From NCBI GenBank assembly GCA_016215705.1, contig JACRIR010000067.1, forward strand, positions 1 through 31,718: a stretch of DNA of 31,718 nucleotides. Reading direction: 5' to 3'. Every line of letters begins with the position of its first letter. Positions within the stretch are counted from its first letter, which is position 1. This document shows, in pieces, positions 2,782 through 29,780 of this stretch. The notes below the pieces were generated by a model. The model did not search any database, was not told the DNA's origin, and saw nothing but the letters and a program-made list of their open reading frames with translations. Source of the DNA: Candidatus Poribacteria bacterium (GTDB taxonomy: Bacteria; Abyssobacteria; SURF-5). The position numbers were made by a program, and so were the translations under genes.

Positions 2782-3306
2782 TCAAAGACCGAACCCCAAC
2801 TTCTTGAGGTTTGCGCGAATGGCTTTTTCCAACTTTGCCGATTCGGTGAATTGTTCCTCAAGTTTGGCGGTGAGACGTTTCATTTTTTCGTCGAATGGTT
2901 CGCCGTCGTCCTCGACTTCTTCGGCGCCGACGTAGCGGCCAGGCGTAAGAACGTGACCGTGAGAGGCGATCTCATCGGTGGTTGCGTTTTTGCAGAAGCC
3001 CGCGATATCTTTGTATTTGCCGGTCTCTTTTTCGCCACGCCAGGCGTGATAGGTGGCGGCAATGCGGGCGATCTCTTCATCCGAAAGCTCGCGATGGATG
3101 CGGTCAACAAGATGGCCGAGCTTGCGGGCGTCAATGAATAGCGTCCAGCCCCTTCGGTCGCGGAATTTGCCGTTTTTCTTATTGCGCGTGAGAAACCAGA
3201 GGCAGACGGGAATTTGCGTTGTATAGAACAGTTGACCCGGGAGGGCGATCATGCAGTCAACGAGGTCCGCCTCGATGATTGCCTTGCGGATTTCTCCTTC
3301 GCCCAC
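2782..3306 (-). pseudogene. hsdM: type I restriction-modification methyltransferase, C-terminal fragment
   Basis: About 174 residues matching the last third of Hsd[79 protein letters not shown] and a closing helical [20 protein letters not shown]. The N-terminal helical domain, the AdoMet-binding motif and the catalytic NPPF motif lie upstream in a normal HsdM of about 500 residues and are missing. Directly upstream of GEGEIRKA the sequence turns into unrelated, repeat-like DNA. The apparent GTG start at 3306 is only the edge of the fragment. It heads the remains of the same minus-strand locus as hsdR, and no intact modification enzyme is left in the window. Confidence 0.85.
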
Positions 3307-7616: not shown

Positions 7617-8027
7617 CTAATTGGATGCGAGGAGATGTTTGATTAGCGCGAGCAGTTTTCCCTGGTCTACGGGCTTGGGGATGAAGCCGTCGGGAGGGGG
7701 CGTGTCTTTGCGGGTCGAGAGGAACTTCAAGAACTCGTCCGGATTGCCTCCCAGGCCGGTTACACCGGTGACAATAACGATGGGTATCTTTCGGAGGTCT
7801 GAGTCTTCTCTTATCTCGCGATAAAACTTGACGCCAGATTTCTCAGGCATTGTGATATCGAGGGTGATGAGCGCCGGAGGGTCGGCTTTGGCTTTCTGCA
7901 ATCCTTCGTTTCCGTCCTCTGCCGTGTCCGCTATGTATCCGTTGTCTTCGAGGAGGGTCGAGAGGTACGCTCTCTCATCGGGCTCGTCGTCGATGACAAG
8001 GATTTTCTTATTTGTATGATCCGTCAC
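7617..8027 (-). CDS. single-domain response regulator (CheY-like receiver)
   Basis: 136 residues from a GTG at 8027, preferred over the ATG at 8060 because AGAGGA lies just upstream and the conserved domain begins seven residues in (KKILVIDDEPDE). Acidic pair Asp13-Asp14, phospho-acceptor Asp57 (LITLDITMPEKSG), VTG and IPKP with the conserved Lys: a complete receiver with no output domain. It shares an unusual insert before the Lys (STRKDTPPPDGFIPKPV) with the receiver fused to the Fe-S protein at 9683-11410 (YDRPVTPPEGYLNKPV), so the two are probably related and could be served by the same kinase, encoded just upstream. The 180-base gap to that kinase holds palindromic repeats. Confidence 0.9.
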   Translation of the reverse strand: MTDHTNKKILVIDDEPDERAYLSTLLEDNGYIADTAEDGNEGLQKAKADPPALITLDITMPEKSGVKFYREIREDSDLRKIPIVIVTGVTGLGGNPDEFLKFLSTRKDTPPPDGFIPKPVDQGKLLALIKHLLASN

Positions 8028-8207: not shown

Positions 8208-9641
8208 TCACAGCGTGTAGGATTCTTCCGATTGCTCCTTTGGCCGCTTGCGGGGGAGTTTTACGGTCAACCGTGCGCCTTTATTGGCCTCGGATTCCAA
8301 TTGGATGCTGCCCCCGTGGGCTAGCGCGATCTTATTGGAAATAAACAAGCCCAGCCCCGTGCCGCCCGCCCCTTTCGAGGAGAAGAAAAGGCTGAATGCC
8401 TTTTCTCTTGTCTCCTGATCCATGCCGATGCCATTATCTTCGATCTCGAAGAGCACATGATCGGGATTGCCCTTGAGCCCGAGTGTTATATAGTGAGAAT
8501 CCTTCTTCTTGTCAACTCTGCACGCATCCAGCGAGTTTTCCAGGAGGTTCACGAGGAGCGAGCGAATCGCTTTCTTGTCACCCTCGAATGTGCCCGCATC
8601 ACGGTCGAAATCCCGCCGGAATTCGATTCCTCGCTCTTTTGCTTTGACTTCCATTATACCCGACACTTCCTCTATGGCCTCGACCGCCGTGATTAGCTCC
8701 CAGTCGGGCTCCCGGTCCTTGGCGTAGTACAGGATGTCCAGAACCATGCTGCGGATGCGCGACATGTTGCGCTGCACCATGTCCCATCCCTGTTTGACCC
8801 TGTCCTGCTTGTTTTTTTCGAGGCCGGTGTTCACCATGTAGATGCCGCCGTCGAGGCTATTGAGGAGGCCCTTGATACCGTGTGAAATCGATCCGATGAG
8901 CAACCCGAGGGAGGTGAGCTGCGATTGGAGTCGCCGAATCTGCGTGATGTTTGTGCTCATTTCCATCACGCTTTTTATTTCGCCGTCGACCTCGCGTATC
9001 GGGGTCGTATAGACCACGACGTTTACTTGTTCGCCGGTCTTCGAGGTGACGACCTCTTCGCTCTGGTGCACCTTGCCATCACTAAACGTAGCCTGAACCG
9101 GGCAGGGGAGGCATTCCTCACCGCGGTGCTTATACACTTCGTAGCATTTGCAGCCGAGGCGATCTCCGAAATCCTCTTTGAAGCGGCTATTCGCTTCGAT
9201 GATACTAAGTTCCTGATCCTGGATGGAAATGTAACAAGGAACTTTCTCAAAGATCAAGCGATACCGCTCCTGGCTCTCCTTGAGCTGGGTTTGGAGTAGC
9301 TTTATCTCGGTTATGTCAGTCGACATTTCCAGGACAGACGTGATCTCGCCCTTCTCGTTTCGGATGGGTGTAGTATAGACAATCACCGAGACGTCTCTGC
9401 CGTCGAGGGACTTGACTTCTTCCTCGCTCCCATGCGATATGCCGTCTCTGAAGGTGCGGTCAACGGGGCAGACTTCGCATCTCTCCGAGCGGTGCTTGTA
9501 GACCTGGTAGCAGTAGCGGCCCTCAAAATCTCCGAAGTCATTTTTGAACCGCCGATTGGCCTCGATGATTTTGAAATTCCTGTCCTGGACCGTTAGGTAG
9601 CAGGGCATGCCGTCGAAATACTGACGATATGGTAGCTCCAT
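8208..9641 (-). CDS. sensor histidine kinase with two Cys-motif PAS domains
   Basis: 477 residues from the ATG at 9641, set by GGAGGTGA five bases upstream. Two tandem PAS domains (about 1-115 and 125-240) share the signature CY-x-VYKHR-x5-CxxCPV: Cys44, Cys55, Cys58 in the first and Cys166, Cys177, Cys180 in the second. Then the kinase core: phospho-acceptor His254 (GSISHGIKGLLNSLDGG), N-box LVNLLENSLDA, G1 EIEDNGIGMD and G2 GGTGLGLFIS, all intact. There is no membrane segment, so it senses a cytoplasmic signal. The Cys clusters could bind a metal or Fe-S centre or act as thiol switches (inference). It lies 41 bases after the Fe-S/receiver fusion and before a lone receiver, its likely phosphorylation partners. 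Confidence 0.92.
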   Translation of the reverse strand: MELPYRQYFDGMPCYLTVQDRNFKIIEANRRFKNDFGDFEGRYCYQVYKHRSERCEVCPVDRTFRDGISHGSEEEVKSLDGRDVSVIVYTTPIRNEKGEITSVLEMSTDITEIKLLQTQLKESQERYRLIFEKVPCYISIQDQELSIIEANSRFKEDFGDRLGCKCYEVYKHRGEECLPCPVQATFSDGKVHQSEEVVTSKTGEQVNVVVYTTPIREVDGEIKSVMEMSTNITQIRRLQSQLTSLGLLIGSISHGIKGLLNSLDGGIYMVNTGLEKNKQDRVKQGWDMVQRNMSRIRSMVLDILYYAKDREPDWELITAVEAIEEVSGIMEVKAKERGIEFRRDFDRDAGTFEGDKKAIRSLLVNLLENSLDACRVDKKKDSHYITLGLKGNPDHVLFEIEDNGIGMDQETREKAFSLFFSSKGAGGTGLGLFISNKIALAHGGSIQLESEANKGARLTVKLPRKRPKEQSEESYTL

Positions 9642-9682: not shown

Positions 9683-11410
9683 CTATTTCTTCTTTCCGTC
9701 GTGCGCGACGCCGAGAATCTTGTGCATGTTCAATATGAGCTCTTCGTTGGCGACCGGCTTGTTCAGATAGCCTTCCGGCGGAGTCACGGGCCGATCGTAG
9801 ATGAGCCTGCGCAGTTCCGGCTTGCCCGTAATGATGCAGACCTTTATCGCGCTGAGCTCAGGGTCCTTGCGGAGAATCTCAAACACTTCGCCGCCGTCTT
9901 TGCCCGGCATCGAAAGGTCCAACGTGATAAGATTCGGCTTCTCCTTGCGGGCGAGGGCCAATGCTTCGTCCCCATCCCTGGCGAGGATCACGGTTGCTCC
10001 ATTGTCCTCGAGGACGGTGCTGAAGAAGGCGAGCGTGTCGGCCTCGTCGTCGGCGAGCAATATTTTGTAACCCACAAGTGTTGCGACTTCGGCCGCGGCC
10101 TTGCGTTTCTCCGGCACAACGAGGGCGTTTGCCACAAGATTCACCAACTGGGTCACCTTCATGTCCAGTTTATAGTGTCTGATCAAATCGCTCAGTCCAT
10201 CCACGCAATTGTGACATGAGGTGACAACGGTCTTTGCTCCGGTTTCCTTGAGTTGGTTCGCCTTTATGATTGCGGACTTGAGGCGCCTTGGCGTGTACTC
10301 CGACATTGACATGGCGCCGCCGCCGCCGGTGCAGCAGAAGTTCTCCGCGCGGTTGGGATACATCTCGCGGAAATCCATGCATACCATGTTAAGCAATTCG
10401 CGCGGTTCTTCGGTCAGGCCGCAACTTCGGGCGTTGTTGCAGGAATCGTGGAAAGTCACCGGTTCGGGGTTCTTTGTTTTGTCAACCTTAATCTTCCCCT
10501 CTTTGATATAGCGGAGCATCGAGATGACAGAGCTTTCCATTTTGAAGTTAACGTCCTTCTGACCCCAGTTTTGCCCTTCGCAGCGAGTTGAACGGTAGCC
10601 GTGCCCGCACTCGGAAATCACGAGTTTCTTGCCGCGAAGGTTTTCCGTCGCTTCATAGCAGCGCCTGGCGACGGCGCCGCCGAGTTCGTCGTCTCCATTG
10701 AACAGCCCGAAGTTGGTCATGTCCCAGCCTTCGCTGGCCATGGTCCAGTTTTCGCCCGCGAAATGGAATATCTTGGCGGCGTCGGCGATTGTGCGCGGGT
10801 CGTACTTCGCCTCGCGAGGATTGATCGAGTAGACTACATCGCAATCCATCTTGTCGATAGGGATTTTGATCGAGGGGTCGTCGTACTCGCTCTGAAGCTC
10901 TTCTTGCATCCACTGCAACGTGTCGAGAAAATCCTCTTTCAGGACTCCCATCTGGTTGCCGATCTCCCATTGGTCTTTCGCGACAACCGCTACGCCTTGC
11001 GGCATGACACCGACGGAGACAAGCAGCCCGCGCGCCATGCGGTTGAACGTTGCCATATCGACGCCCATGGGGCAGTTGATGGAACAACGCCGGCAGTTTG
11101 TGCATTTGCCGAAGACGGTGTCTTTCAGTTCCTCGAGTTCATCATCGGTATAGAGACTACGCGCGCTCACCCACCATGGGAATTTCTTGCCAGTCCAGTC
11201 GATGTGGGCTTTAAAGAGTTTCCGCAGTTTGTCCGCCTTATACGACGGCATATACGACACATCGCCCGGATTCGCCAGAACATAATGGCACTGATCGGTG
11301 CACATTCCACAGTGCACGCACGCTTCGAGCGACCCGAGAATCTGGCGGCTGACCTTTTTATGCAATCGCTCGATGACCTTCTCGCACTTGTACGACCTTT
11401 TATTGCTCAT
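9683..11410 (-). CDS. HdrD/DsrK-like Fe-S oxidoreductase fused to a receiver domain
   Basis: 575 residues. Residues 31-41 and 103-113 are two [4Fe-4S] ferredoxin motifs (CVHCGMCTDQC, CTNCRRCSINCP). The middle holds an HdrD/DsrK/TmcB-type catalytic region: ISECGHGYRSTRCEG, DSCNNARSCGL, NFCCTGGGGAMSM and TSCHNC, which should bind the non-cubane [4Fe-4S] centre that handles thiol/disulfide chemistry in this family. Note CCT where the classical motif reads CCG. From residue 446 to the end is a complete receiver (LLADDEAD, Asp498 in LITLDLSMPGKDGG, LNKP). The start ATG has AAGGAG upstream. With the cytochrome b subunit encoded 140 bases before, it forms an HdrDE/DsrMK/TmcBC-like membrane-bound quinone module. 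The fusion implies control of electron transfer by phosphorylation, or a redox enzyme that signals. Confidence 0.88.
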   Translation of the reverse strand: MSNKRSYKCEKVIERLHKKVSRQILGSLEACVHCGMCTDQCHYVLANPGDVSYMPSYKADKLRKLFKAHIDWTGKKFPWWVSARSLYTDDELEELKDTVFGKCTNCRRCSINCPMGVDMATFNRMARGLLVSVGVMPQGVAVVAKDQWEIGNQMGVLKEDFLDTLQWMQEELQSEYDDPSIKIPIDKMDCDVVYSINPREAKYDPRTIADAAKIFHFAGENWTMASEGWDMTNFGLFNGDDELGGAVARRCYEATENLRGKKLVISECGHGYRSTRCEGQNWGQKDVNFKMESSVISMLRYIKEGKIKVDKTKNPEPVTFHDSCNNARSCGLTEEPRELLNMVCMDFREMYPNRAENFCCTGGGGAMSMSEYTPRRLKSAIIKANQLKETGAKTVVTSCHNCVDGLSDLIRHYKLDMKVTQLVNLVANALVVPEKRKAAAEVATLVGYKILLADDEADTLAFFSTVLEDNGATVILARDGDEALALARKEKPNLITLDLSMPGKDGGEVFEILRKDPELSAIKVCIITGKPELRRLIYDRPVTPPEGYLNKPVANEELILNMHKILGVAHDGKKK

Positions 11411-11550: not shown

Positions 11551-12315
11551 TCACTTGCCTTCTACTGATTTGATGCGTGTGAACATTCGGCCCAGAGGCT
11601 CATTTCCCGGATTGAATGGGAGGGGGTAAACGCCCCGGTGGCCGAGAGTTTTTCCAAGGTACCACCTCGTGAACGGATAGAATATGTAATGCGAGATTTT
11701 GCTGAAAGGAACGTAGAACAGGAAGAAGGCGGTCAGGAAGAAGTATCCCAACAGCCAGAACTCCGTTATGTCGCTATTGTTGGGCGCCGCCTTGAACGCA
11801 AAGGCGAGCCAGACCACCAGCAACGCGAGCGAGAAGTAGTCGTCCGGCGTGCTGATTGCCCGGATATACGGCGACACAATGCGGCGGATGAGGCGGCCTA
11901 CTCCTACGAGGAAGCCGAGAGCGAACAGTGTTTGCAGCGCCATGATAATCAGCGGGCTCGATATCAGTTGAGGCAAGTAAGGCAGGACGATTGACATCGT
12001 GATGGAAGTCGCGACGGCCACGTGAAAGATGCCGAATTGCAGGTAAAAGAAAGGATGCTGGCGGGTGCTCGGCATCGACCACGGCATGAAGATGTTGAAC
12101 AGCGAGTACACAGCGCCCCTTTTCGCGTTGGTGTCCCGGTTGCCGGTCGGCGCCTGGCGTTCCTTGCCCGCTTTGAAACTCAATATCCATCTGACTTTAA
12201 AGAAATACACGAGCGCCATGAACGACAACGCAATGAGTTGAAGTTTGTCTTCCGCAAAACTTAGAAGCGCGCTCGTGGTTTCGACGTTTGTGCTTATGGC
12301 GTGTATGGTTTCCAT
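11551..12315 (-). CDS. membrane cytochrome b subunit (HdrE/DsrM/TmcC/NarI-like)
   Basis: 254 residues from the ATG at 12315, preceded by GGAGAGGG; the longer frame to 12378 is not needed. Five predicted membrane helices: LQLIALSFMALVYFFKVRWI, a segment with HVAVATSITMSIVLPYL, IIMALQTLFALGFLVGVG, FSLALLVVWLAFAF and FWLLGYFFLTAFFLFYVPF. His residues in PFFYLQFGIFHVA and FSKISHYIFYPF are candidate haem b ligands, as in NarI-family subunits. It would exchange electrons between menaquinone and the Fe-S fusion protein encoded next. The macro-domain gene ends 13 bases upstream, so they are probably co-transcribed. The exact quinone direction and the final donor or acceptor are unknown. Confidence 0.82.
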   Translation of the reverse strand: METIHAISTNVETTSALLSFAEDKLQLIALSFMALVYFFKVRWILSFKAGKERQAPTGNRDTNAKRGAVYSLFNIFMPWSMPSTRQHPFFYLQFGIFHVAVATSITMSIVLPYLPQLISSPLIIMALQTLFALGFLVGVGRLIRRIVSPYIRAISTPDDYFSLALLVVWLAFAFKAAPNNSDITEFWLLGYFFLTAFFLFYVPFSKISHYIFYPFTRWYLGKTLGHRGVYPLPFNPGNEPLGRMFTRIKSVEGK

Positions 12316-12328
12316 TGTCTCCCTCTCC

Positions 12329-12892
12329 TTACAAAGTATCCATCTTCTTCTTGAACGGCACATAATCGCGGTAGTCAATCACGCAAATAATCACTTCCTT
12401 CAGAGAAGAGCCTTTCTCGAGGAAGGATTTCATGCAATCGAGCATGACATTGGCGGACAGATCGAGCGGAACGCCGTAGAATCCTGTACCCATTGGCGGG
12501 AAAGCGAGTGTCTTCAAACCGACCTTGTCGGCTGTTCTCAGAGAGGACATCACGCACTCGCGCAGCTTCTTCTCGAGGTCGGGCTCCTGGAACTTCGGGC
12601 CGCAAGCGTGAATAATGTGTCGAGCGTTCATCTCGCCTGCGCCGGTGATCACGGCCTCTCCCATCTTTATCTTCCCAATCTTCTCGAGCTCTTTCTTGAT
12701 TGAGGCGCCGCCGCGGCTCTGGATCGCCGTGCCATAGCCGGAGCCGATTTCGAGGTCTTCTTTGGCGTAGAAGACAAATGCGTCCACCGGCAAAGCCGTC
12801 AGATCGCCGTGCTGCAGTCTTATAACCGTCTTGCCTGCCTTCTTCTCAATCGGCTTGCAGGCCATCCCTGTTGGAGACACCTGTACTTCCAT
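12329..12892 (-). CDS. macro-domain protein
   Basis: 187 residues; AAGGAGG seven bases upstream of the ATG at 12892. Residues about 20-180 form a macro domain: LQHGDLTALPVDAFVFYA, GSGYGTAIQSRGGASIKKEL, MGEAVITGAGEMNARHIIHA, LAFPPMGTGFYGVPLDLSA. Such domains bind ADP-ribose or related NAD-derived metabolites and some hydrolyse ADP-ribosyl or O-acetyl-ADP-ribose bonds. Its position as a cistron between an Rrf2 regulator and the cytochrome b gene is unusual and suggests a link between NAD metabolites or ADP-ribosylation and the redox module. The variant has Tyr-Gly-Thr-Ala in place of the more usual Gly-Val-Ala after the first loop. Cytoplasmic, no signal peptide. Confidence 0.88.
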   Translation of the reverse strand: MEVQVSPTGMACKPIEKKAGKTVIRLQHGDLTALPVDAFVFYAKEDLEIGSGYGTAIQSRGGASIKKELEKIGKIKMGEAVITGAGEMNARHIIHACGPKFQEPDLEKKLRECVMSSLRTADKVGLKTLAFPPMGTGFYGVPLDLSANVMLDCMKSFLEKGSSLKEVIICVIDYRDYVPFKKKMDTL

Positions 12893-13105: not shown

Positions 13106-13678
13106 TCACGTGCACTCGTCTTGTGACTTCTGCCATTCGTCTTTCTTGACTCGTGGCTCGCAGCTAGGCACTCGGAATTCTGCGCCTTGTGCGGTCCCTT
13201 TTCGCTTTTTGCCCTTTTCGCCTTTTCCCGCCTTGTTTGATTCCCGCATCTCTTTCGCAATCACCTGTCCGATCTTGTGGCCGGCCAGATCGGCCAGAGT
13301 AAAGGCGTTGAAAGCTTCCTCGATCCTCTGGTTGAGGAGAACGTACAAGGGACGGCATTCGCACCATTCCACTTTCATGCACGAATCGGTGTCTTTGACG
13401 CAATGCACAATATTGATGGGGCCGATGGCCGCCTGTACTATATCGCCGACCTTGATCTTTTCCGGCGCCCTCGCCAGGAGATAGCCGCCCTCTTTTCCGC
13501 TCATCCCCTTGAGCAGCGACGCATTTTTGAGTGGAATAACCAATTGTTCGAGATATCGCCGCGTGACGGACGTCTTGGCAGAGATATCGTTCAGGTTGAT
13601 GGGCTTGCCGTCCTGGCCGCTACGCGCAATCTGAATCATTGCGCGCAATGCGTACCTTGCGCGTGTATTGAGTTTCAT
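13106..13678 (-). CDS. Rrf2-family transcriptional regulator with Cys cluster
   Basis: 190 residues. Residues 1-70 are the Rrf2 winged helix (LNTRARYALRAMIQIA, ISAKTSVTRRYLEQLVIPLK, GKEGGYLLAR). Cys93, Cys100, Cys106 and Cys108 (VHCVKDTDSCMKVEWCECRP) match the Fe-S ligand region of IscR/NsrR/RsrR-type members, so it probably senses redox state, nitric oxide or cluster supply. The family core ends near residue 150; the remaining 40 (GKGEKGKKRKG, AEFRVPSCEPRV) are low-complexity and appear to be read through repeat-like DNA, so the true end may have been displaced. It heads the cluster with macro, cytochrome b, Fe-S/receiver and kinase genes and likely autoregulates it through the palindrome at 13903-13930. 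Confidence 0.88.
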   Translation of the reverse strand: MKLNTRARYALRAMIQIARSGQDGKPINLNDISAKTSVTRRYLEQLVIPLKNASLLKGMSGKEGGYLLARAPEKIKVGDIVQAAIGPINIVHCVKDTDSCMKVEWCECRPLYVLLNQRIEEAFNAFTLADLAGHKIGQVIAKEMRESNKAGKGEKGKKRKGTAQGAEFRVPSCEPRVKKDEWQKSQDECT

Positions 13679-22865: not shown

Positions 22866-23714
22866 TCAGGCCAACAAATCTAAGATCATTCCCGTGCGTT
22901 GATTGGCCATGGCCTGCGCGAAAACGCCGGCTTGAAGACGAATTCTTGACAGGGCAGACTCGCCCGTTGCAGCGGCGAAATCGGTGTCACGAATAGTGGA
23001 CCGGGATGTGATGAGGTTGGCTCCGGTCACTCCGAGGCTGCGGGACGTGGCTTCGAGGGTGTTTGTCTGAAACGCGCCCAGGGCGGTCCTGATGCCGGAA
23101 ACCTCGTTGATGGCGGCATCTACGATTCGGAGAGCATCGGCTGCTCCTTGTGGAGTTGTAACGTCGATTTCGGACAAGCTTGCGAAGCCACTTGCGTTTT
23201 CCACGCCTGCGCCCAAGGCATTCGCCGCAACATCGGGGATGGTCAACTGCGTCGGATTGCCCTCGGCGACCAGAAAATCTTTTTCCCGGAAGGTTCCATC
23301 GAGCAGAGGCTGGCCGGCAAACTCGGTGGTTTCCACGATCCGGTTTATGCTCTCGGTCGCGCGATTGATTTGTTCCTGAATGGCTTGCAGTCCCGTGTCG
23401 CCCAAAATCGCCGCATTACCCGCCTGTACTGCGAGCCCTCGTATAGCGTCCAGTTGCGTGTTGATCTCCGCAAGAGCTCCTTCCGCTGTCTGAACCAGAT
23501 TGATATCGCGAGAGGTATTGACGGAGAGAGCGTTCGCCTCGGCGATTTGCGCTCCAAGTTGTTCGGAAATGGCGAAGCCGGCTGGGTCGTCGGCTGCGGA
23601 ATTCAGTCGCAGTCCGGATGAAAGCTGCTCGAGGTACTTCTGCAATCTGGCCTGTTGAAGCAGGATATTGCGTTGAGCGGCAAACGGATTAGAGGATGTT
23701 ACTCGCAAGCCCAT
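22866..23714 (-). CDS. flagellin
   Basis: 282 residues. The N-terminal D0/D1 coils (SNPFAAQRNILLQQARLQKY, LEQLSSGLRLNSAADDPAGF, AISEQLGAQIAEAN, NTSRDINLVQTAEGALAEIN) and C-terminal coils (ISGIRTALGAFQTN-like, SLGVTGANLITSRSTIRDTD, FAAATGESALSRIRLQAG) are typical; the variable D2/D3 part is short (about 150-200). It builds the extracellular flagellar filament after export by the flagellar type III system. No other flagellar gene lies in the window, so this is a solitary copy. The promoter at 23760-23789 is sigma-70-like, not the sigma-28 class normally used for flagellin. The ribosome site is weak (GAGAGGG about ten bases from the ATG). Confidence 0.92.
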   Translation of the reverse strand: MGLRVTSSNPFAAQRNILLQQARLQKYLEQLSSGLRLNSAADDPAGFAISEQLGAQIAEANALSVNTSRDINLVQTAEGALAEINTQLDAIRGLAVQAGNAAILGDTGLQAIQEQINRATESINRIVETTEFAGQPLLDGTFREKDFLVAEGNPTQLTIPDVAANALGAGVENASGFASLSEIDVTTPQGAADALRIVDAAINEVSGIRTALGAFQTNTLEATSRSLGVTGANLITSRSTIRDTDFAAATGESALSRIRLQAGVFAQAMANQRTGMILDLLA

Positions 23715-25582: not shown

Positions 25583-26896
25583 ATGAAATCGAAATCCGGC
25601 CGCTTGAGTCACGACCGAATCTTAGGGTTGGCTTTCTTGATTCTCGTAGTTGTGCCGGCCTCTTCTGGCTTGGCATTTAGCGATCCCGATTGCTACAAAT
25701 GCCACGCGGACGAGCAATCTGCTGTGACCAAAGCCGGCGGAGACCGGATTGCTGCGCCCCAGAAAGTCGAGGGAGTGGCAGGAGAGAAAAGCAAGCATAG
25801 TCCGCCTGTAAACCGCGCTCATCTGGAGGAATCGGCCCATCGCGGCCTCGGCTGTGTCGGGTGCCACGCGGATATCAAGTCGGTTCCCCATCCTGAGAGT
25901 TTGAAACCGGTTTTGTGCTCCACTTGCCATGAGCCGGAAGGCGCGAAATATTTGGGGAGCGTTCACGGGATGGCTTTTTCCAAGGGTGACCCGGATGTTC
26001 CCACTTGTGCGAAATGTCATGGGGACCACCATGTTCTGCCTGTCGATAACCCGCAATCGAGGGTGTATCCGACCAATCTCATAAAGGTCTGCATCGCTTG
26101 TCATGCCGACGAAGCCATCGAGGCGCGACACGACCTCCCTCAGCAGGGACTATTCCGCGCGTATGAGAACAGCGTGCATGGCAGGGCAATAGAGGAAAAA
26201 GGATTCGTTGTTGCCGCCGCATGCAACGATTGCCATGGCAGCCATGAGATCAAGCCCGTCGACGATCCGGGGTCTCTCGCGAACAAGCGCAACATACCGG
26301 CCGTCTGCGGCAAATGTCACACTGGCATTTACGACGAGTACTCGGGGAGTATCCACGGCACAGCAGTGGCTTCCGGGATCAAGGAAGCCCCGGTTTGCAC
26401 GGATTGCCACGGAGAACACACGATAGCCAAGGTGACCGATCCTCAATCCAAGGTATATAGCAGGAATATCCCGACGACGTGTTCCGCTTGTCACGATGAC
26501 AGAGAGATCGTGGCCGAGTACAAACTGGCCGCCAAACGATACGTTACCTACCTCAATAGTTATCATGGTGTGGCCAACAAGTTCGGCATTCCCTATGTCG
26601 CTAACTGCGCGACGTGCCACGGTGTCCACAACATACGACCTGCCGGCGACCCTTTGTCCACCATAAACAGAGAGAATCTGCCCGCGACCTGCGGCAAGTG
26701 TCATCCGGGGGCCTCCAGGAATTTCGCCCTCGGCAAGGTCCACGTCGAGGCGACGCGGGAAAACTCGATAGGCGTTTATGCCGTGAGGGAATTCTATAAA
26801 TGGTTTATCGGAGTTTTGGTGACTTGCTTCGCGCTGTATGCCGTCCTGGAGACCGTCGGGAAGATGCGGAGGAAATATGCCGTCCAAGGAAAATGA
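25583..26896 (+). CDS. membrane-anchored 11-haem cytochrome c
   Basis: 437 residues. Signal peptide (ILGLAFLILVVVPASSGLAF), then eleven CxxCH motifs (CYKCH, CVGCH, CSTCH, CAKCH, CIACH, CNDCH, CGKCH, CTDCH, CSACH, CATCH, CGKCH), and a C-terminal membrane helix (FYKWFIGVLVTCFALYAVLE) with a basic tail. The repeating block S(V/I)HG-x-A ... VCxxCHGxH-x-I ... DPxSxVY-x-NIPxxCxxCH recurs several times, so it grew by duplication. It faces the periplasm and should pass electrons to or from the cytochrome b encoded next, whose start overlaps this stop by 20 bases. Start ATG at 25583 with a weak AGGGA site. No catalytic domain is visible; it is probably a wire, though a reductase role cannot be excluded. 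Confidence 0.92.
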   Translation: MKSKSGRLSHDRILGLAFLILVVVPASSGLAFSDPDCYKCHADEQSAVTKAGGDRIAAPQKVEGVAGEKSKHSPPVNRAHLEESAHRGLGCVGCHADIKSVPHPESLKPVLCSTCHEPEGAKYLGSVHGMAFSKGDPDVPTCAKCHGDHHVLPVDNPQSRVYPTNLIKVCIACHADEAIEARHDLPQQGLFRAYENSVHGRAIEEKGFVVAAACNDCHGSHEIKPVDDPGSLANKRNIPAVCGKCHTGIYDEYSGSIHGTAVASGIKEAPVCTDCHGEHTIAKVTDPQSKVYSRNIPTTCSACHDDREIVAEYKLAAKRYVTYLNSYHGVANKFGIPYVANCATCHGVHNIRPAGDPLSTINRENLPATCGKCHPGASRNFALGKVHVEATRENSIGVYAVREFYKWFIGVLVTCFALYAVLETVGKMRRKYAVQGK

Positions 26897-27629
26897 CGCA
26901 GCCGCCGGGCAGGCGCCGTCCGTCGCTGTCGGCAAAAGTCTGAATGACGAGATGGAGATTACGAGGTTTTCCCTGAACTTCCGCATTCAACACATTGTCC
27001 TGTTTACCAGCCTGATAGTCCTCGGAATAACCGGGCTATCCCTCATGTTTCACGACAACTGGCTCGCCACGCTCATCATTCGTCTGGAGGGAGGAGTCGA
27101 GATTCGCGGACTGATCCACCGCGTGGCGGCGGTCGTACTAATTGCAGGGAGCCTCTACCATGTTTTCTACGTCATGTTTACTGAAGCAGGACATACCGAG
27201 TTCATGAAACTCAAGCCCGGGCGCAAGGACTTCAGCGACTTCCGCCAGGCTCTGAAATTCGATCTCGGATTGTCCGACAAAGAGCCTGTGTTCGAGAAGT
27301 TTGACTACGTGCAGAAATTCCAGTATGGCGGCGTGGTTGTCGGCGTGGCAACGATGATATTTTCTGGTTTCATCCTGTGGTTTGAGACACCCTCGATGGC
27401 CGTAGTGCCCAAATGGGTGATAGATGTGACTCTCATCGTACACGGTTACGAAGGCCTGCTGGCGTTCCTGATTCTGTTCCTGTGGCATCAATATAACGTA
27501 CACCTCAACCCCACCGTATTCCCGATGGACAGAGCATGGCTGACCGGGAGGATTTCCTTGAAGGACCTGAAGGAAAAACACTACCTCGAGTATGAGGAGG
27601 TAGTTCGAAAGTCGCAGGATAATGAGTAG
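26877..27629 (+). CDS. cytochrome b subunit, four-helix b561/FdhI-like
   Basis: 250 residues from the ATG at 26877, set by GGAGG just upstream; it overlaps the first cytochrome gene. Four membrane helices: IQHIVLFTSLIVLGITGLSL, LIHRVAAVVLIAGSLYHVFY, GGVVVGVATMIFSGFILWF and GYEGLLAFLILFLWHQYNV. His in IQH, LIHR, LYHVF, IVHGYE and LWHQYNVHLNP fit the two-haem pattern of quinone-reactive cytochrome b subunits of formate dehydrogenase and hydrogenase type. It probably oxidises menaquinol and delivers electrons to the neighbouring multihaem proteins, or does the reverse. It is clearly paralogous to the gene at 28758 (shared VIRL-x-GG, EKFDY, YNVHLNP, LTGxIS, LEYEE). Confidence 0.88.
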   Translation: MPSKENDAAAGQAPSVAVGKSLNDEMEITRFSLNFRIQHIVLFTSLIVLGITGLSLMFHDNWLATLIIRLEGGVEIRGLIHRVAAVVLIAGSLYHVFYVMFTEAGHTEFMKLKPGRKDFSDFRQALKFDLGLSDKEPVFEKFDYVQKFQYGGVVVGVATMIFSGFILWFETPSMAVVPKWVIDVTLIVHGYEGLLAFLILFLWHQYNVHLNPTVFPMDRAWLTGRISLKDLKEKHYLEYEEVVRKSQDNE

Positions 27630-28701
27630 ATTCATCCTCCAATTCTGCGCGGTGGCCCTCTTTGTCTTCGCCGGCGTCACCGTTTGTTACGCTCAGCCGG
27701 TGGATTTGCAGAAGTGCACCATCTGTCACGGAAAACCCGGCCATAAAAGGATTGATGACAGCGGCCACGTCCAGTCACTTTTTGTGGACGAGAAGATTCT
27801 GAAAGGATCGGTCCATGCTGTCAGAGCCTGCACCGACTGTCACGCGGACGTCACTGAAATCCCGCATCGCGTGCTTCCGAAAAAGGTCAACTGTACTCGA
27901 TGCCACTACCTTGGGAATCCTGTCGGCGCGCCACAGGACGTCGACTACCAGGCCTATCTTAAGAGCGTTCACGGACGGGCGGCGGCAAACGGTAAGAAGG
28001 ATGCTCCCTGGTGTCAAGACTGTCATGGCAACCATAACATAAAGGCCCACACCAATCCCGGTTCCAATATCTTCCGCGACAGTATACCGAAAACTTGTGG
28101 CAGATGCCATGTGGACATATACGCCCAATACCGTGAGAGCGTGCATGGGGAGGCCCTCATTGCCAAAGGCAATCAGGATGTCCCTGTCTGCACGAGTTGT
28201 CACGGGGAGCACAATATCCTGGCGCCGACGGACCCTGGTTCCACAGTTTATCCGAGCCACGTCGCTGAAGCCTGCTCGCATTGTCACGCCGCTGAGACAA
28301 TCATGGGCAAGTACGGCATTGAAAGCGAGCAAGTTGCCACATATGATGAGAGTTTTCACGGCATAGCGGGGAAATTCGGGTCCGCTACTGTGGCCAACTG
28401 CGCCAGTTGTCATGGTGTTCACGATATTCGACGACCCAATGACCCCAAGTCAAGCGTTTATATTGATAACATACCTAAGACCTGCGGTAGATGTCACGAG
28501 GGCGCCAATATCAACTACGCCAAAGGCAAGATTCATGTTGATGCGAAGAAGAAAGAAGCCGGGATCGTCTATTATGTGGCCTTCGCATTCAAATGGCTTA
28601 CCATTTTGACCATGATCGGATTGATTGCGCATATTATGCTGGACCTTAACAAGAAAGCCAAGAATAGCCGGCAGAGAAAGACCGGGCAACCGGACGCATG
28701 A
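27622..28701 (+). CDS. membrane-anchored 9-haem cytochrome c
   Basis: 359 residues. Signal peptide (FILQFCAVALFVFAGVTVCY), nine CxxCH motifs (CTICH, CTDCH, CTRCH, CQDCH, CGRCH, CTSCH, CSHCH, CASCH, CGRCH) and a C-terminal helix (FAFKWLTILTMIGLIAHIML). The order of blocks and the ending (NIPKTCGRCHEGANINYAKG, KIHVDAKKKE) match the 11-haem protein at 25583, so the two are paralogues, this one lacking about two haems at the N-terminal side. The ATG overlaps the stop of the cytochrome b gene by eight bases, which indicates translational coupling. Expected role as for its paralogue: periplasmic electron relay tied to the membrane. Confidence 0.92.
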   Translation: MSRFILQFCAVALFVFAGVTVCYAQPVDLQKCTICHGKPGHKRIDDSGHVQSLFVDEKILKGSVHAVRACTDCHADVTEIPHRVLPKKVNCTRCHYLGNPVGAPQDVDYQAYLKSVHGRAAANGKKDAPWCQDCHGNHNIKAHTNPGSNIFRDSIPKTCGRCHVDIYAQYRESVHGEALIAKGNQDVPVCTSCHGEHNILAPTDPGSTVYPSHVAEACSHCHAAETIMGKYGIESEQVATYDESFHGIAGKFGSATVANCASCHGVHDIRRPNDPKSSVYIDNIPKTCGRCHEGANINYAKGKIHVDAKKKEAGIVYYVAFAFKWLTILTMIGLIAHIMLDLNKKAKNSRQRKTGQPDA

Positions 28702-28757
28702 AATGGACTGGGGGATGATGCGCCCGGCGACGGCGAGTCGCGGCGCGGGTACACATC

Positions 28758-29780
28758 ATGGCTGAACGAAATAAGACAGGAAACCACTGCGAGGAAGCTT
28801 TGGCGCGGCTGGAGAAGCAGATCGAAGAGAATCTGCTTACCCGGATCGAGGCGGAGTTGGATGGCGAGGTGAGCGAAGATACCAGGGTGCTCATCCGTGA
28901 GAAACTGAGAGTCAAGGTCCGGCAGGAGATGGGGGAGCAGATAGACCGGATCACGGATGAGATCGCAGCCGGTGTGCTCCAGCCTGAGAGAGAACGGTTG
29001 GCCGAAGAGAAACCGCCTGTGGTGAAGGAAGAGGAATTCCTTCGACTTGGCATCAATATCAGAATTCAGCATATGTTCCTCTTTACGAGTGTCCTCACCC
29101 TTATCGTTACGGGGTTGCCCCTGCGGTTCGCCGAACTGGGCTGGTCGGAGACGGTAATCCGTCTTCTCGGCGGCATTGAGAACAGTCGGCTGATTCACCG
29201 TATAGGCGCATCGGGCCTGATGGGTGTGGCAGCCTATCATTTTCTTTACACCCTATTCTCGAGGCAGGGTCGCCGTGATTTCTTCTTGCTTTTGCCGCGA
29301 CCCAAGGATGCCCTGGACGTGTTCACCATGATCAAGCATTTTCTAGGCATATCGGAGGAGCGACCGAAGTTCGGGAGGTTCAGCTACATCGAGAAGTTCG
29401 ACTATTGGGCCGTTTACTGGGGTTGTGTCATCATGATAGGGTCGGGCTTGCTGCTGTGGTTCCAGGACTTTTCTCTCAGATTCCTGCCCAAATTCGGGCT
29501 GGACATAACGAAAGAAGCGCATCGCGATGAAGCGCTCCTGGCCACATTAGCCATCATCATATGGCATTTTTATAATGTCCATCTCAACCCCGACAAGTTT
29601 CCAGGCAGCCTGACCTGGCTGACGGGCAAGATATCCAAACACGAAATAATGGAAGAACATGCCCTGGAGTATGAGGAGATAATGGACGCGCGGGCGAAAA
29701 ACGGCGGCCCGCGGAATGAAGATGCGTGTCAGGTCAAAACGCCGCCGGATTGTGAAACTGTTTCTGGCCGATGTGATTGA
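28758..29780 (+). CDS. cytochrome b subunit with N-terminal coiled-coil extension
   Basis: 340 residues. Residues 1-90 are charged and helical (CEEALARLEKQIEENLLTRI, then LIREKLRVKVRQEMGEQIDR), a likely cytoplasmic coiled coil absent from the sister gene at 26877. Then four membrane helices with the same His pattern: IQHMFLFTSVLTLIVTGLPL, LIHRIGASGLMGVAAYHFLY, WAVYWGCVIMIGSGLLLWF and HRDEALLATLAIIIWHFYNV. It should be a quinone-linked two-haem-b subunit. The C-terminal tail (residues about 305-340) is hydrophilic with three Cys. It follows the 9-haem gene after 56 bases. The coiled coil could dimerise the subunit or dock a cytoplasmic partner; that is inference. Confidence 0.88.
   Translation: MAERNKTGNHCEEALARLEKQIEENLLTRIEAELDGEVSEDTRVLIREKLRVKVRQEMGEQIDRITDEIAAGVLQPERERLAEEKPPVVKEEEFLRLGINIRIQHMFLFTSVLTLIVTGLPLRFAELGWSETVIRLLGGIENSRLIHRIGASGLMGVAAYHFLYTLFSRQGRRDFFLLLPRPKDALDVFTMIKHFLGISEERPKFGRFSYIEKFDYWAVYWGCVIMIGSGLLLWFQDFSLRFLPKFGLDITKEAHRDEALLATLAIIIWHFYNVHLNPDKFPGSLTWLTGKISKHEIMEEHALEYEEIMDARAKNGGPRNEDACQVKTPPDCETVSGRCD

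Follow-up and report, generated by a model that had tools for sequence, protein, structure and literature searches.

The subject of this analysis is a single gene in a 31,718-nucleotide stretch of DNA from a Candidatus Poribacteria bacterium (assembly GCA_016215705.1, contig JACRIR010000067.1), hereafter the window, that joins an iron-sulfur (Fe-S) oxidoreductase of the CCG class to the receiver domain of a two-component system. The open reading frame (ORF) occupies positions 9683-11410 of the minus strand and encodes 575 residues; the plus strand over the same interval carries stops. A first-pass annotation had read the translation as an unbroken passage from two ferredoxin clusters and a CCG-type region into a complete receiver with Asp498, and Pfam together with the residue positions bears this out on the minus strand, placing Fer4_8 at residues 28-117 (E 1.9e-10), CCG at 318-402 (E 1.1e-9) and Response_reg at 450-559 (E 6.4e-16). 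The gene, its two parts and the kinase gene that follows it are:

9683..11410, minus strand: HmcF/TmcB-like Fe-S oxidoreductase with a C-terminal receiver (ORF, Pfam, NCBIfam, AlphaFold2)
10103..11410, minus strand: catalytic half, residues 1-436 (Pfam, cysteine motifs)
9683..10072, minus strand: receiver, residues 447-575 (Pfam; residues D454/D455/D498/T528/K551)
8208..9641, minus strand: soluble PAS-PAS histidine kinase with an H260 box and HATPase (Pfam, motif residues)

Homologues were collected by a scan of GTDB contigs that gave 248 confirmed relatives, of which the best 80 were kept, and 74 of the resulting 81 proteins (the 80 plus that of the window) carry a receiver of useful length; because the query itself contained the receiver, fused copies tend to rank higher, and 74/81 should not be taken as a population frequency. 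The fusion recurs in a same-family genome (86% identity) and in one from another family (73%), and its carriers bear about a dozen phylum labels, including Abyssobacteria, Zixibacteria, Planctomycetes, Calditrichaeota, Ignavibacteria/Kapabacteria, Acidobacteria, Elusimicrobia, Gemmatimonadota, Syntrophaceae and other Deltaproteobacteria. Relative to the window protein, the median identity is 76% over the catalytic half and 62% over the receiver. The first-pass annotation had proposed searching for the domain order 4Fe-4S, CCG, receiver, and the 74 proteins that show it lie at independently assembled loci, so the fusion is no assembly error. A chimeric assembly is ruled out by these full-length copies with intact frames and a degenerate receiver by the conservation of its phospho-chemistry residues in all 74, which makes an artefact of either kind, including a decayed receiver kept by chance, extremely improbable. 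The fusion of a DsrK/HmcF-class oxidoreductase to an intact, conserved receiver is thus confirmed.

The catalytic half contains two CX2CX2CX3C motifs for 4Fe-4S clusters (cysteines 31/34/37/41 and 103/106/109/113) and one full CCG motif, C324-x34-C359C360-x38-C399xxC402, and so has the two 4Fe-4S motifs and the full CXnCCXnCXXC that mark the CCG-domain Fe-S oxidoreductases; the first CCG half is degenerate, retaining C268 and C277 only. All 13 motif cysteines and C268 are cysteine in every homologue that covers the position (80/80 or 81/81), with C324, C359, C360, C399 and C402 conserved in 81/81. Among NCBIfam models HmcF (NF045711, 340 bits) ranks above TmcB (NF045724, 314 bits) and DsrK (NF045796, 256 bits), and the fusion passes none of the respective curated cut-offs of 750, 735 and 400 bits. 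As it falls below every one of these, we regard the catalytic half as forming its own subfamily within the HmcF/TmcB/DsrK class, closest on sequence criteria to HmcF/TmcB rather than to HdrD. The earlier label of DsrK/HdrD-like therefore stands as to class and fails as to HdrD, an identity that we reject since HdrD is not among the best NCBIfam matches of this half, and the HmcF and TmcB models both outscore DsrK. For the catalytic half a PDB sequence search matched mycobacterial EtfD alone; a Foldseek search with the predicted model again gave EtfD for this half (9ojn, E 1.8e-15, 21% identity), and many receivers at the C-terminal end.

The fused receiver possesses the residue set expected of PF00072, namely the acidic pair D454/D455, the phospho-acceptor D498, T528 and K551. 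D498, D455 and K551 are present in 74/74 fusions, D454 in 73/74 (one has E), and position 528 is T or S in 74/74. An AlphaFold2 model built from 68 sequences (mean predicted local distance difference test score, pLDDT, 88.1; predicted template modelling score, pTM, 0.72) is confident for each half separately, with the receiver at a pLDDT of about 95, and is of low confidence only in the linker at 436-441 (pLDDT below 50) and the last residues. Among homologues the linker from C402 to D454 spans 48-108 residues. The best NCBIfam model for the fused receiver is the DVU0259 family (NF045717, 65.9 bits), whose 160-bit cut-off is reached neither by it nor by the stand-alone receiver encoded further along the operon (95.1 bits). 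At five loci (L109, L111, L114, L121 and L141) the enzyme half is near that of the window and the receiver scores low to it; the tree suggests receiver replacement in these Solibacterales-type fusions, the approximately unbiased test leaves a common origin unrejected (p 0.25), and these receivers may represent replacement or fast divergence.

The first-pass annotation had also noted a kinase gene next in the operon, and it indeed begins 41 nt past the fusion gene, with an ATG at 9641 behind GGAGGAGGTG. Downstream sequence reaches 1.5 kb or more at 64 fused loci, and the kinase gene follows the fusion in 63 of them; at the four receiver-less homologues (L129, L130, L134 and L139, each with about 9 kb downstream) it is found at none (Fisher p 6e-6), which answers the earlier call to test their co-occurrence. 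At a further locus, L127, receiver and enzyme are separate ORFs and the kinase is present. The receiver-less copies branch from within the fused ones in the enzyme tree, which suggests a joint loss of receiver and kinase. Ten loci have the kinase and no second receiver found nearby, which makes the fused receiver the likely partner of the adjacent kinase. The kinase itself has no transmembrane-like segment. Its two PAS domains each carry a C-x10-C-x2-C motif (C50-x10-C61-x2-C64 and C172-x10-C183-x2-C186), a possible metal, Fe-S or sulfur sensor; all six cysteines and H260 are invariant in 63/63 kinases, as are K263, N375, D408 and G410, and with GTGLG in nearly all of them the phospho-acceptor His box and the N and G boxes of a histidine kinase are in place.

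Gene order ties the operon to dissimilatory sulfur metabolism at a number of loci, where gene identities were assigned partly by similarity to named proteins of the window's genome. In L074 the order is dsrA, dsrN, dsrC, the operon, dsrK, dsrP; in the Syntrophaceae-type loci L088, L102, L104, L105 and L112 it is dsrN, dsrC, the operon, dsrM2, dsrK2, then mostly dsrK and dsrP; and in L108 a dsrC-like gene directly follows the fusion. This last ORF (L108:10739-11485) has two tandem DsrC-like units. Overall 19/80 loci have a dsr or dsrMK2 gene within the examined stretch. DsrA exceeds its cut-off in 64/80 carrier genomes (41/50 and 23/30) and in 4/38 non-carriers among the window's relatives, and in a phylum sample of 297 genomes it occurs in 9/10 with the full fusion and 134/287 others (p 0.008). 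The window's own genome encodes DsrK (744 bits) and DsrP over cut-off, DsrC and a DsrN-like protein on contig C2. From gene order and co-occurrence, we place the operon in dissimilatory sulfur metabolism. Of dsrA this genome (G000) has fragments at C12:2-109 and C112:2-109, with contig ends likewise in G001 and G002; two contigs ending inside the first dsrA codons in each of these three genomes of the family suggest that two near-identical copies broke the assembly.

The phylum sample also holds unfused relatives, at 61-62% and 43-45% identity. In the more distant ones (L206-L209, 43-45%) hmcE, hmcF, a stand-alone receiver and the kinase are separate genes, with a further receiver after the kinase at three of the four loci, so that the fusion joined genes already adjacent in an hmcE-hmcF-receiver-kinase-receiver order. 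In a receiver tree the fused receivers and those beside unfused hmcF group together at 97/91 support, apart from most downstream receivers, the short alignment limiting resolution. Comparison of these gene orders shows an origin of the fusion by the joining of neighbouring genes. The unfused relatives at 61-62% identity have hmcF separated from the receiver-kinase pair by a HEAT-repeat-like gene (L200:5991-6620, L203:9645-10274 and L205:7929-8606).

The window operon reads, on the minus strand, (rrf2)-macro-hmcE-[hmcF-receiver]-kinase-receiver, its remaining genes being:

7617..8027, minus strand: stand-alone receiver, DVU0259-like (95.1 bits, below the 160-bit cut-off)
11551..12315, minus strand: HmcE-like membrane subunit with five transmembrane-like segments (NF045716, 57.9 bits, below cut-off)
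12329..12892, minus strand: macro-domain protein (PF01661, E 1.1e-25)
13106..13678, minus strand: Rrf2-family regulator, first gene of the run (PF02082, E 1.2e-30)

The HmcE-like gene directly upstream of the fusion supplies a NarI-like cytochrome b partner for which haem binding is predicted, H119 and H230 (ORF numbering) being invariant in 77/77. The macro-domain gene occupies a conserved position two genes before the fusion at 64/80 loci, and our search turned up no known role for such a protein in Hmc/Dsr operons. An Rrf2 gene occurs at 23/80 loci, mostly three genes before the fusion, and the stand-alone receiver is the second gene after it at 47. No HmcA or HmcB-D gene is present in the window run or among the conserved neighbours of the 80 loci. 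Just upstream of the operon, 14 loci (e.g. L070:6872-7639) have a gene combining a MerR/excisionase-type helix-turn-helix, a cysteine-rich stretch and a weak receiver-like domain. Elsewhere in the window we note a four-gene run at 25583-29780 (plus strand) in which two multihaem c-type cytochromes alternate with two cytochrome b561-type membrane proteins; type I restriction pieces at 22-609 and 2782-3306 (minus strand; an HsdR C-terminal part and an HsdM part), apparently truncated or interrupted; and a flagellin gene at 22866-23714 (minus strand), no other flagellar gene being recognised among the window's ORFs.

We propose a model in which the fusion protein is a quinone-linked oxidoreductase, most likely directed to DsrC, whose activity or docking is switched by the cysteine-PAS kinase, and we give this explanation as a whole a probability of about one half. 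The HmcE-like cytochrome b and the cytosolic CCG Fe-S subunit would form a minimal Hmc/Tmc-like membrane module for electron exchange of the quinone pool with a thiol partner in the cytosol, most likely DsrC. The receiver, held on a flexible linker, would allow a cytosolic kinase to switch the CCG subunit. That kinase, through two PAS domains with three invariant cysteines each, would sense cytosolic conditions (redox, metal or sulfur state), autophosphorylate at H260 and pass the phosphate to D498. The phosphorylated receiver would then change its pose and alter the activity of the enzyme or its docking to HmcE or to the partner, with the stand-alone receiver at 7617-8027 serving as a second target or phosphate sink. 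The fusion, the residues for phospho-chemistry, the linkage to the kinase and to dsr genes, and the origin from adjacent genes are read from comparative sequence analysis and form the established part of this model, from which we infer the phosphotransfer, the identity of DsrC as partner, the direction of electron flow and the gating that the first-pass annotation had suggested. More tentatively, and at somewhat less than even odds, we would extend the model to a respiratory membrane Fe-S/CCG oxidoreductase that is phosphorylated on its own attached receiver by a cytosolic cysteine-PAS kinase, as a post-translational two-component switch of electron delivery to DsrC-type carriers in many phyla.

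Several points weigh against this model. Phosphorylation, and any effect of it on activity, is a prediction from sequence, and the linker pLDDT below 50 means that the pose of the receiver relative to the catalytic part is not settled by the predicted structure (pTM 0.72). At one of the fused loci, L108, an adjacent kinase is missing, and the four nested homologues without receiver and kinase imply that the switch is dispensable to the enzyme; since the enzyme tree provides only 1-3 phylogenetically independent pairs, the coupling of receiver and kinase is suggestive rather than statistically secured. Furthermore, the window operon has no dsr gene nearby, some carriers (e.g. G044, G089, G091 and G092) have no detected DsrA in what are incomplete metagenome-assembled genomes, and of dsrA the window's genome, like both sister genomes, shows just N-terminal fragments where two contigs end.

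The sulfur linkage could instead reflect shared ecology, with the thiol partner being a ferredoxin, an Hdr-type or a thioredoxin-like protein. We think this unlikely, if deserving of serious attention: the redox partner of Hmc/Tmc is described as unknown, with DsrC or ferredoxin suggested (PMC4215793), and the distance of the window operon from dsr genes and the carriers without detected DsrA accord with it, but it sits poorly with the Syntrophaceae and Zixibacteria loci, where the operon has dsrC on one side and dsrM2K2 or dsrK on the other, and with L108, where a dsrC-like gene comes immediately after it. The signal might also run in reverse, the Fe-S/CCG part acting as a redox sensor that sets the uptake or loss of phosphate by its receiver, in competition with the stand-alone receiver, for a transcriptional output. 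PMC10924467, citing Keon 1997, reports rrf1 and rrf2, which lie beside hmcF in the hmc operon, as regulators of hmc expression, an Rrf2 gene heads the window operon and recurs at the 23/80 loci, and the fused receivers group with stand-alone ones beside unfused hmcF; yet the conserved operon is without a DNA-binding response regulator, and the retention of all its catalytic cysteines suggests an active enzyme and not one left with sensing alone, so we judge this direction improbable. A receiver serving for docking or assembly, where phosphorylation would set dimerisation, HmcE membrane recruitment or co-localisation with the kinase and not turnover, finds some appeal in the linker, whose length of 48-108 residues and low-confidence middle suit tethering over a rigid allosteric joint. 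Tethering alone, however, needs no strict conservation of acceptor and lysine, which are kept in 74/74, and this too seems to us rather unlikely. The proposal of a kinase-switched, quinone-linked oxidoreductase remains our preferred explanation. The usual targets of two-component systems are transcription or motility. If the proposal is true, a kinase-paired receiver within a quinone-linked oxidoreductase of sulfite reduction would mean direct, fast control of respiratory electron flow, and would offer a handle on the role of Hmc/Tmc-type complexes and of the receivers and PAS kinases beside them in sulfate reducers.

The covalent joining of receiver and enzyme is shared with enzymatic-output response regulators, and receivers attached to metabolic enzymes are stated as a general kind in PMC5847659, the passage concerned naming no quinone-linked Fe-S/CCG oxidoreductase. 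The first-pass annotation knew of no characterised enzyme of this class that is directly phosphorylated, and the open-licence literature yielded neither such an enzyme nor a description of the fusion architecture, so that its claim holds within that literature while the broader idea of a receiver on a metabolic enzyme was already published. No paper was found under the locus tags DVU0258/DVU0259.

EtfD, the closest solved structure, differs in that its donor is ETF, it has no receiver and it belongs to another subfamily. The DsrMKJOP and DsrM2K2 systems resemble the window operon in pairing a CCG Fe-S subunit with a NarI-like cytochrome b, and dsrMK paralogues adjoin the operon at some loci, but DsrK and DsrK2 are distinct proteins encoded elsewhere in the window's genome, where DsrK2 (340 bits) forms part of a DsrM2K2 pair with its own separate downstream receiver on contig C232. 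As DsrM2K2 thus has two genes of its own in this genome, and lies beside the operon elsewhere, we reject the fusion being the published DsrK2; dsrM2/dsrK2 are reported in peatland Acidobacteria, the passages concerned mentioning no receiver fusion (PMC6018796). The pair and its stand-alone DVU0259-like receiver (L148:5050-8118, with the same order in G001, L149) constitute a second instance of a CCG enzyme accompanied by a receiver, here unfused. To Tmc (TmcABCD) the likeness is that of the catalytic half to TmcB (314 bits), and to the DVU0259 family that of the stand-alone receiver (95.1 bits), but both scores are below cut-off and the window's genome has a separate, better TmcB on another contig (715 bits, C22). 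Closest in composition is Hmc of Desulfovibrio vulgaris (hmcABCDEF, rrf1, rrf2), which likewise has an HmcE-like cytochrome b, an HmcF-like CCG subunit and an Rrf2-family gene nearby. The window operon, in contrast, is without HmcA/B/C/D, has its receiver fused, includes the cysteine-PAS kinase and a macro-domain gene, and scores far below cut-off against the HmcF and HmcE models. Rrf1 of the hmc operon is a receiver protein, and the separate hmcF and receiver neighbours in the relatives of the fusion parallel an hmc operon with its own rrf1. The fusion may be read as a 'Rosetta stone', indicating that the enzyme is the probable direct target of the neighbouring receiver.
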